64,000 nt of DNA from Apostichopus japonicus (taxonomy: Eukaryota; Echinodermata; Holothuroidea; Aspidochirotida; Stichopodidae), in contig NC_092579.1 in assembly GCF_037975245.1 (NCBI RefSeq), positions 3,310,001 through 3,374,000 on the forward strand. Direction: 5' to 3'. Shown one piece after another: positions 19,317-43,818 of this stretch (the first letter of the stretch is position 1; every line of letters starts with the position of its first letter). The notes beneath the pieces are model-generated. The model did not search any database. It saw only the letters and a list, made by a program, of their open reading frames with translations, and was not told the DNA's origin. The position numbers and the translations under genes were made by a program.

Positions 19317-19597
19317 TCAGATGCTTGAGCCAACGTTGACTGGGCGAGACCTCTGTATCTTCTTGTTGACACGTGATGGGTTGTGATTCCCGTACTCGTC
19401 TATGTACTTACGGCAAACACGGTATAGTTCTAGGAGTATGCCACCGGAAAGAAGACAAAATGCAAAAGCAAACCAACCACAGACGAATGACCATCCGATG
19501 AAGTAACGATAATGATCGGTCTCACGTACACTCTGGTCTTCCTCACTGGACGTGTGCGTGTGAATCATCATCACGTGACCAACCAGCATGAATAACC
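19317..19597 (-). CDS. Tetraspan gene exon 4 and stop
   Basis: The acceptor CTGAAACAG follows a T-rich tract. It encodes the end of TM3 ([11 protein letters not shown]), an extracellular loop with acidic residues ([12 protein letters not shown]), TM4 starting YFIGWSF, and the tail [10 protein letters not shown] … VGSSI, with the stop codon completing at 19317. GWSF at the start of TM4 is a hallmark of CACNG/TARP proteins. Confidence 0.85.
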
Positions 19598-43500: not shown

Positions 43501-43818
43501 TTATTTCTCTAAAAGGGAAATTAATAGCGACTTACCGTCTTCAGTAAGTAAATAACTTTCGAAGCAAATGTCCCATATTCCTGTGCTCGTACGGAGGAAG
43601 TACGTTCTGGAGATGTTCTCCCCGTCTTTGGTGGTGTTTAAGGTGGCCATGGTACCCTCCGCGATCACCCATTGGTTGGTTGAAACCGATACGGTGATGA
43701 ACACCCAGCCGAAGAAACCCAACAGAACACTTATTCCACATAAAACACGAAATTTTCTAGCAGTGTACATCGCGTCACACATTATCCTAGAAGAAAATAG
43801 TATAACTGTCTCTTGCAA
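19317..43818 (-). CDS. Calcium-channel gamma subunit/TARP-like tetraspan protein, four exons
   Basis: Reconstructed gene, minus strand: exons 43818-43536, 30085-30005, 21231-21094 and 19597-19317. All junctions have GT-AG ends and compatible phases, giving 260 residues. Features: TM1 about 26-47; W50; sequons NTT (61) and NIS (68); the superfamily signature GIWDIC (80-85), with the partner Cys at 104; TM2 about 127-149; TM3 about 154-181; YFIGWSF (199-205) opening TM4; a basic cytoplasmic tail ending GSSI, which fits a class I PDZ ligand (S-x-hydrophobic). The four-exon layout, with exon 1 ending just after the G-x-W-x-x-C motif in phase 1, matches vertebrate CACNG genes. Family members modulate calcium channels or AMPA receptors at the plasma membrane; the role here is inferred. 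Claudin or TMEM114/235-type relatives are alternatives. The start could also be Met13 or Met17. Confidence 0.85.
19723..20825 (+). mobile_element. Solo LTR (Gypsy-type retrotransposon) in intron 3
   Basis: Starts TGTTACGAGG and ends CCAACGTAACA: TG…CA ends with a 7-base inverted match (TGTTACG/CGTAACA). ATAT flanks both sides, a possible 4-base target duplication, although the surroundings are AT-rich. A TATA box at 20081 fits an LTR promoter. No gag/pol is present, so it is a solo LTR left by recombination. It fills most of the 1.5-kb intron 3 and is antisense to the host gene. Gypsy assignment is inference from end sequence and duplication length. Confidence 0.7.
20081..20088 (+). promoter_or_regulatory. 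TATA box of the solo LTR
   Basis: TATAAAAA in the middle of the LTR, in GC-richer context, at the place expected for the U3/R promoter. It would drive transcription antisense to the tetraspan gene. Confidence 0.5.
20826..21090. repeat. AT-rich microsatellite cluster in intron 3
   Basis: Long interrupted (AT)n and (TATA) runs, including a roughly 40-bp duplicated segment ATTGAAATCGTGATATNTAT near 21004 and 21047. The cluster abuts the exon-3 donor at 21093. Confidence 0.85.
21094..21231 (-). CDS. Tetraspan gene exon 3
   Basis: A 138-base exon. Acceptor ATCTTGCAG; donor TTTTCCG then GTGAGT at 21093. It encodes [18 protein letters not shown] …, i.e. TM2, the short loop VQQHP and most of TM3, ending FTMIFSG across the junction. 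The phases join exon 2 (Ser codon split 1/2) and exon 4 (Gly codon split 1/2). Confidence 0.85.
21240..23642. other. Intron 2, proximal part: no gene
   Basis: AT-rich. Contains (AT)n at about 22691-22760, a G-rich purine tract near 22560-22602 ending in G10, and (AAG)n at about 23060-23087. No coding exon with splice sites was recognised. Confidence 0.4.
23643..24525. repeat. Tandem duplication, two copies of a 438-bp unit
   Basis: The segment beginning CTGTAARTATATATAGCTGAG is present at about 23643 and again 438 bases later, followed by the start of a third junction-like piece. The copies are highly similar. Each carries a CGACGTCACTA (CRE-like) site. Both contain a short ATG frame beginning [13 protein letters not shown], but it diverges in frame and length between copies and is not called a gene. 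Confidence 0.85.
24819..26900 (-). pseudogene. LINE reverse transcriptase, interrupted
   Basis: Minus-strand [17 protein letters not shown] (about 26880), [31 protein letters not shown], then [17 protein letters not shown] with the first catalytic Asp (about 26510), [16 protein letters not shown], and LLFADDSAL (about 26135). The frame is open from 26624 to the SINE at 25772 and resumes after it ([16 protein letters not shown]). The end carries [20 protein letters not shown]. Stops and frameshifts near 26640-26840 show it was inactive apart from the SINE insertion. Confidence 0.85.
25406..25772 (+). mobile_element. tRNA-derived SINE nested in the LINE
   Basis: A 367-bp insertion flanked by perfect 12-base duplications TACTGTCCTGTA (25394-25405 and 25773-25784). 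Removing it restores the LINE reading frame. The tRNA-like head has A box GTGGCAGAACGGGAG (25417) and B box GGTTCAAACCT (25461-25471), i.e. an internal RNA polymerase III promoter. The body includes GGAGGGGACGTTAAAT. The 3' tail is built of ATATC/ATCAT repeats (about 25757-25772). Orientation is opposite to the LINE. The open frame across it is accidental. Confidence 0.9.
27537..28420 (-). pseudogene. LINE AP-endonuclease domain, largely open
   Basis: Minus-strand frame from about 28420 to 27537 with [21 protein letters not shown] (metal-binding Glu), [33 protein letters not shown] and STDHFLVRT (catalytic Asp-His). The domain looks intact over its catalytic residues. It loses frame at 27537, where the linker continues in another frame ([16 protein letters not shown], then [16 protein letters not shown]). 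Confidence 0.85.
28962..29002. repeat. GTCACT hexamer microsatellite
   Basis: About seven imperfect copies of ACTGTC/ACTGTG. Confidence 0.85.
29455..29920. repeat. Very long (ATC)n microsatellite in intron 2
   Basis: About 470 bp of ATC repeats with patches of CACCAT, CGATCATC and CGTCAT variants, purest at the left. On the gene's strand it is (GAT)n, beginning about 85 bases after the exon-2 donor. Poly-Ser, poly-His and poly-Ile frames across it are artefacts. Confidence 0.98.
30005..30085 (-). CDS. Tetraspan gene exon 2
   Basis: An 81-base exon too short for ordinary ORF listing. Acceptor TTTCTTCCAG precedes 30085; donor TGT then GTAAGTTC begins at 30004. It is 2 + 26 codons + 1 and encodes [18 protein letters not shown] then ITTDEWLL: the rest of the first extracellular loop, with the conserved second Cys and one more sequon (NIT). 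Short second exons of this length are characteristic of the CACNG family. Confidence 0.85.
30086..31619. other. Intron 1, distal part: no gene
   Basis: Unique AT-rich sequence with several T9-T10 tracts. A GC-richer patch lies at about 30380-30490. No exon with splice sites seen. Confidence 0.4.
31620..31862. repeat. Imperfect tandem duplication of about 130 bp
   Basis: CTTTACGCTTGATCGCTAT … GGATTATTAGCCCTTAATAT (about 31622-31727) recurs in diverged form as CTTTATGCTTGATCGCTATT … GGATTATTAGGCCTTAATAT (about 31757-31856). A G9 tract lies in the first copy. Confidence 0.75.
31863..34802. other. Intron 1, middle part: no gene
   Basis: AT-rich with scattered homopolymers. A consensus CRE-type palindrome TGACGTCA sits at about 34204 (GTAATGACGTCATTAG). 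No transposon coding sequence seen. Confidence 0.4.
34803..34970. repeat. Minisatellite, about 40-bp unit, five copies
   Basis: The core CGTAACTCATCTCAATGT recurs with variable 18-24-base spacers (TATTGTGTGTAGTATCGTG-like). A C10 tract precedes it near 34763. Confidence 0.8.
35790..35990 (+). mobile_element. 3' end of an L2-like LINE
   Basis: The final RT-domain residues [14 protein letters not shown], then a stop, a GTAAAGCGCTTTGAAATGC-type terminal motif, GCGCTATATAGG and a (TTA)n tail. This is the standard 3' terminus of L2-type elements. Only the last 200 bases remain. Confidence 0.75.
36360..36465. repeat. (TA)n microsatellite
   Basis: About 100 bp of TA repeats with a few interruptions, preceded by (CACACA/CATACA) repeats. 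Confidence 0.95.
36466..39997. other. Intron 1: no gene
   Basis: Unique-looking sequence with (GA)n near 37015, C-rich tracts near 37750 and 38675-38700, and G13 at about 39899. Some plus-strand open frames around 39330-39660 show no domain or splice logic. Confidence 0.4.
39998..40195. repeat. Degenerate tandem repeat, about 45-bp unit
   Basis: Variants of AGCACCATAATTCAGCACCTT recur four or five times (near 40005, 40105, 40140 and 40172), followed by (GT)n at 40205-40222. Confidence 0.55.
40223..42109. other. Intron 1: no gene
   Basis: AT-rich, with a purine-rich GGTGGAGGAGGTGGAGG patch near 41284. Nothing coding recognised. Confidence 0.35.
42110..42440 (+). mobile_element. C-terminal remnant of an L2/CR1-like LINE
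   Basis: In two frames it reads [16 protein letters not shown], then after a shift a typical end-of-RT pattern with [19 protein letters not shown] sequence and [15 protein letters not shown]. This SF..A..LWN.LP..I…F+..LK.+ layout ends many L2-type reverse transcriptases. It is decayed. Confidence 0.6.
42441..43535. other. Intron 1 next to exon 1: no further feature
   Basis: AT-rich unique sequence up to the exon-1 donor at 43535. Confidence 0.4.
43536..43818 (-). CDS. Tetraspan gene exon 1
   Basis: Codes residues 1-94 plus one base: short N-terminus, TM1 ([20 protein letters not shown]) and the first extracellular loop with two glycosylation sequons and GIWDIC. The donor is GACG then GTAAGT at 43535. 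Met13 (MCDAMY) or Met17 are alternative starts and would give a short cytoplasmic N-terminus like that of vertebrate relatives. Confidence 0.85.

Follow-up and report, generated by a model that had tools for sequence, protein, structure and literature searches.

A four-exon gene encoding a CACNG/TARP-like four-pass membrane protein in Apostichopus japonicus

The window analysed here, i.e., the whole stretch of 64,000 nucleotides of Apostichopus japonicus DNA (contig NC_092579.1, positions 3,310,001 to 3,374,000), carries on its minus strand four exons which, being spliced, give a 747-nt frame of 248 residues and a stop codon. Coding exon 1 (43536..43782, 247 nt from the ATG) specifies the N-terminus, the first transmembrane helix (TM1) and the first extracellular loop with GIWDIC; coding exon 2 (30005..30085, 81 nt) adds the remainder of this loop together with the second loop cysteine, C92; coding exon 3 (21094..21231, 138 nt) encodes TM2 and the beginning of TM3, while coding exon 4 (19317..19597, 281 nt with the stop) supplies the remainder of TM3, GWSF, TM4 and a 34-residue tail ending in SSI. 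Introns 1, 2 and 3 comprise 13450, 8773 and 1496 nt, respectively; all three are in phase 1 and each has GT-AG edges. As established by a script run over both strands, GIWDIC and GWSF fall in separate minus-strand open frames.

An earlier sequence-only reading of this DNA had proposed four minus-strand exons of 283, 81, 138 and 281 coding bases joined through GT-AG sites in compatible phases into a protein of 260 residues. The sizes of exons 2, 3 and 4 and the end of exon 1 at 43536 were recovered as proposed, with acceptors in AG, donors in GT and every junction in phase 1. The size of exon 1 and that of the protein had to be reduced to 247 nt and 248 residues, counted from the first in-frame ATG at 43782, while base 43818, taken previously as the start of the exon, opens a TTG codon. 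The frame of exon 1 is open back to 43842 and contains no ATG upstream of 43782. A stretch resembling an acceptor and ending in AG (43787..43805, minus strand; rank 42 of 3471 AGs by a generic matrix) stands 4 nt ahead of this ATG and may be the end of a putative 5′ UTR intron, so that a further 5′ exon beyond the coordinates proposed earlier is possible.

The surroundings of the gene are rich in repeats. Intron 2 houses the remains of a LINE-type retrotransposon (24822..28457), which lie on the gene's strand (minus) and outside its product and comprise RVT_1 (25689-26639) and Exo_endo_phos (27540-28457), both above cut-off, with other ORFs taken from the ORF list; further LINE-type remains occupy 4722-5587 (minus strand) and 7188-9878 (plus strand). 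Pfam scanning covered 9 of the 165 ORFs of at least 70 residues, namely, two elongases and seven others; six of these seven gave hits below E of 0.001 to families of reverse transcriptases or endonucleases, those at 25689-26639 and 27540-28457 being the only ones above the Pfam cut-off. The plus strand also holds, about 13 kb apart, a pair of similar ORFs for fatty-acid elongases (ELO, PF01151), both uninterrupted, at 50426-51265 and at 63401-64000, where the second runs off the window; the first matches ELOVL7 in PDB. The DNA blocks holding both are 90% identical, and segments 47611-49043 and 49985-51025 recur in the same order at 60441-61776 and 62944-64000 with 83% and 90% identity, shorter repeats being dispersed among them, which suggests that the elongase copies were carried by a tandem segmental duplication. 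Another direct duplicate of about 1.9 kb (12778-14722 versus 15972-17892) has 88% identity. An ATC array of about 130 units (29457-29850) is followed by a 6/18-base array (29823-29920) ending 84 nt from exon 2. Neither Rfam at its gathering threshold nor tRNA scanning under the bacterial code returned a match.

Within the span 19600-43540, stop-free stretches that lie between AG and GT and are in the required phase number 24 for a length of 81 nt and 12 for 138 nt. Exon length was therefore rejected as evidence, and exons 2 and 3 were chosen by homology and by the quality of their splice sites. All ORFs of 20 or more residues in the six frames of the window were scored with a profile made from six CACNG sequences, 20 dinucleotide-shuffled windows serving as a control. 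The three top ORFs of the window are those with exons 4, 1 and 3 (29.1, 25.5 and 19.8 bits), followed by one with 6.3 bits; the best score per shuffled window ranged from 4.0 to 11.1 bits, so that each of the three exceeds all 20 controls. The joined protein reaches 87.0 bits against the same profile. Thus, it is homology, not exon length, that exceeds chance. Splice sites were ranked among all minus-strand AG (3471) and GT (3696) dinucleotides of the window using generic matrices, by which the acceptors of exons 2, 3 and 4 take positions 2, 8 and 20 and the donors of exons 1, 2 and 3 take positions 7, 252 and 1. Exon 2 is the least certain: searched alone against Pfam it gives no match, and its support comes from position, phase, the loop cysteine and the acceptor ranking second of 3471. 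The rank of its donor, along with the length of the first two introns, the second of which holds LINE remains, would fit a decayed or mis-joined gene, whose exons are old and real and are no longer spliced together. Yet four open exons follow each other in order and in a single phase, their splice sites are mostly high-ranked and the joined protein retains its profile score, which makes such decay highly improbable. The four-exon gene looks real and correctly recognised, and within its already known family it is an ordinary one.

The arrangement of introns was compared with that of human CACNG2, for which we assume coding exons of 211, 84 and 141 nt followed by the last exon, phase 1, and intron sites at residues 71, 99 and 146. 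In pairwise alignment the sites of introns 2 and 3 (S110 and G156 of the window protein) coincide with R99 and G146 of CACNG2. Intron 1 (residue 83) falls opposite CACNG2 residue 77 versus the assumed 71, within the same loop, which differs in length between the two proteins and is too variable for a judgement, and was counted neither way. If the assumed sizes hold, exons 2 and 3 of 81 and 138 nt follow the usual layout of the family, and the emphasis put previously on a small exon 2 is weakened, a small second exon being normal by this measure. Should the layout be as ancient as that of CACNG2 implies, the positions of introns would serve, where genomes are poorly annotated, to distinguish true CACNG genes from claudin-like genes of other kinds.

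The hallmarks of the superfamily are four TM helices, G-[LI]-W-x-x-C in the first loop and a second loop cysteine. Four TM helices are indicated in the window protein by hydropathy peaks, G-[LI]-W-x-x-C is found in its first loop, and GIWDIC, the paired loop cysteines (C73 and C92), GWSF and the terminal SSI noticed by the sequence-only reading are all in place. C73 and C92 align with C62 and C72 of gamma-7, and in the pairwise alignment with CACNG2 C92 is opposite no cysteine. The protein ends in GSSI, of which SSI, fitting the class 1 PDZ pattern, is a predicted PDZ-binding motif, as usual in TARPs. The C-terminal PDZ ends of TARPs are, according to a published survey, predicted to be mostly of class 1 (PMC7653359). 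The same survey names YSYGWSF before TM4 as the motif common to the CACNG-GSG1 family (PMC7653359), and the GWSF of the window protein is the core of this motif. The YxxGWSF assigned earlier to TM4 reads YFIGWSF, holding as a pattern and agreeing with the published motif at five of seven positions; four of the last five positions, which are the most conserved, are kept and Tyr is replaced by Ile.

Family identity was addressed at the level of profiles, structures and reference sequences. In Pfam the 248-residue protein matches Claudin_2 (PF13903; 8.1e-25, 88.2 bits versus a cut-off of 29.1) and PMP22_Claudin (PF00822; 2.3e-13, 50.8 bits versus a cut-off of 26.7), and the four further families listed are all under their cut-offs; the profile search advised earlier as a check of membership in the claudin/PMP22/CACNG superfamily thus gave two families above curated cut-offs. 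A PDB search admitting E values up to 10 listed 36 distinct sequences; the 31 with E<0.001 are all CACNG subunits or their fusions with receptors, with gamma-7 first (8.5e-16) and gamma-5 fusions (6.4e-13 and 9.7e-12) and gamma-3 (9.6e-12) among them; entry 7ryy, labelled only as glutamate receptor 2, reads in its matched part like 8ss2, a gamma-5 fusion, letter for letter. The remaining five are two GSG1L fusions (0.077 and 0.13), claudin-9 (2.6), a gamma-2 entry (3.3) and a flagellar protein (3.8). Compared over the full length with ten references, phmmer scores are CACNG7 59.6, CACNG5 53.5, CACNG3 48.0, CACNG2 43.5, CACNG8 34.4, CACNG1 26.4, GSG1L 12.9, CLDN4 9.3 and CLDN19 2.7 bits, CLDN15 being unlisted. 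CACNG7 and CACNG5 score highest over the full length, exons 2-3, exon 4 and TM3-TM4; for exon 1 alone, CACNG3 and CACNG2 stand above CACNG7, and CLDN19 (8.4 bits) exceeds CACNG5 (7.8 bits). The protein shares 27% of residues with gamma-7 in an alignment of 195 columns and 24% with gamma-5. Its distance from vertebrate CACNG proteins suggests an invertebrate bilaterian origin. Taken together, Pfam, PDB matches and region-by-region scores support the CACNG/TARP-like identity proposed from the letters, and assignment to TARPs rather than to another CACNG subfamily is likely.

Membership in the GSG1 subfamily was considered because a 12-residue stretch of exon 4 resembles SGLLGMVAHMMY of GSG1L, and was rejected both on scores (12.9 bits for GSG1L versus 59.6 for CACNG7) and on Pfam, where PF07803, a domain of the N-terminal half in that subfamily, is unlisted for the protein when E values up to 10 are admitted, with filters dropping most matches above about 0.1, and the GSG1L control matches it at 5.7e-42.

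Affiliation was also addressed by a tree of the window protein and ten vertebrate references, taken without CACNG4, CACNG6, TMEM114/235 or any invertebrate protein. In the best tree the three claudins form a group apart (100/97), and among the eight rows left the window protein falls together with five TARPs, at a support of 61/61 only and on a long end branch (1.6); a warning was issued that long branches meet, namely, GSG1L and the claudins. Confining the protein to a clade with just CACNG5/7 costs 3.2 log units relative to the best tree. None of the five constrained placements is rejected by the AU test (p of 0.13 for CACNG5/7, 0.136 for CACNG2/3/8, 0.264 for CACNG1, 0.218 for GSG1L and 0.174 for claudins), and the tree, being weak, neither proves nor refutes TARP membership.

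The highest of these p values belongs to CACNG1, in line with a reading by which the protein is a CACNG-GSG1 member outside TARPs, from the CACNG1/6 calcium-channel branch or a protostome-specific one, acting on voltage-gated calcium channels or another partner. The predominance of Claudin_2 over PMP22_Claudin (88.2 and 50.8 bits) resembles that of CACNG1 (150 and 45) as well, CACNG7 leaning likewise (77 and 71.4). The full-length score of CACNG1 is, however, less than half of that of CACNG7, and the PDZ-type end, though compatible with this reading, fits TARPs, so that we consider it doubtful, if the strongest of the competitors. A protein from elsewhere in the claudin superfamily (like TMEM114/235 or CLDND1, or a claudin proper), with a role in adhesion or barriers, might be suspected from the unrejected claudin clade and from the TM3-TM4 scores, where claudin-4 reaches 13.4 bits, GSG1L (16.7) equals CACNG1 (16.8) and gamma-7 has 28.7, in a comparison made without TMEM114/235 and CLDND1 sequences. 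By score the protein is nevertheless closer to CACNG than to claudins, none of which reaches 10 bits over the full length, claudin-9 appears in PDB at E of 2.6 only and GWSF is present; this origin seems quite improbable.

Some members of the calcium-channel-gamma/TARP family help glutamate receptors work at synapses. The best explanation of the locus, whose demonstrated part consists of gene structure, homology and motifs, is that the gene encodes a four-pass CACNG-family protein of 248 residues, which scores best with the Type II TARPs CACNG7/5 and probably serves, by analogy with the family, as a glutamate-receptor auxiliary subunit, which appears to be its most likely role. The gene would presumably be expressed, and its product may bind, via TM3/TM4, to the membrane domain of a glutamate receptor of the AMPA type or a related one and adjust receptor gating, while the C-terminal SSI could tether it to PDZ scaffolds. 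Rather unlikely is a reading by which the protein is a TARP that combines a Type II-like membrane core with a Type I-like PDZ-binding end on a very short tail and keeps the presumed vertebrate intron layout, so that it would preserve the state preceding the split of Types I and II.

Among known systems, CACNG7 and CACNG5 (Type II TARPs) are the nearest: they give the best full-length match and share four TMs, the GLW/GIW..C loop and GWSF before TM4, whereas the window protein has a longer loop after GIWDIC and the modest identity given above. The Type I TARPs CACNG2/3/8 have the common motifs and, on the CACNG2 exon sizes assumed above, agree in the aligned position of two introns out of three, but their scores are lower (34.4 to 48.0 bits versus 59.6 for CACNG7) and the tail of the window protein is much shorter, 34 residues at the end of 248, while full-length CACNG2 chains have 323. 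In PMC4194045 a PDZ-binding C-terminus is described for Type I (TTPV), which the window protein resembles by its SSI, and gamma-5 is said to be without a classical PDZ motif, in which it differs. GSG1L shares GIW..C and GWSF and departs in score and in PF07803. Invertebrate TARPs (PMC7653359) and C. elegans stg-1/stg-2 (PMC4194045) are likewise invertebrate CACNG-GSG1 members, likened here by their published descriptions. According to the survey, TARPs are the only subfamily kept in all bilaterians investigated, although its Table 1 lists no CACNG-GSG1 protein in Ciona; invertebrate proteins are without firm type assignment, trees suggesting that most are Type II, and invertebrate TARPs are more divergent and may be altered in receptor binding (PMC7653359). 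The statement that such subunits are poorly characterised outside vertebrates should accordingly be weakened, invertebrate members having been surveyed (PMC7653359) and those of C. elegans tested (PMC4194045). What is added here is a gene model with exon coordinates, to be used mainly as annotation, in a family whose invertebrate members are surveyed and seldom tested. By that survey, invertebrate TARPs seem usually to join a core of Type II character to an end of PDZ type (PMC7653359), and the combination is therefore no surprise in this protein.
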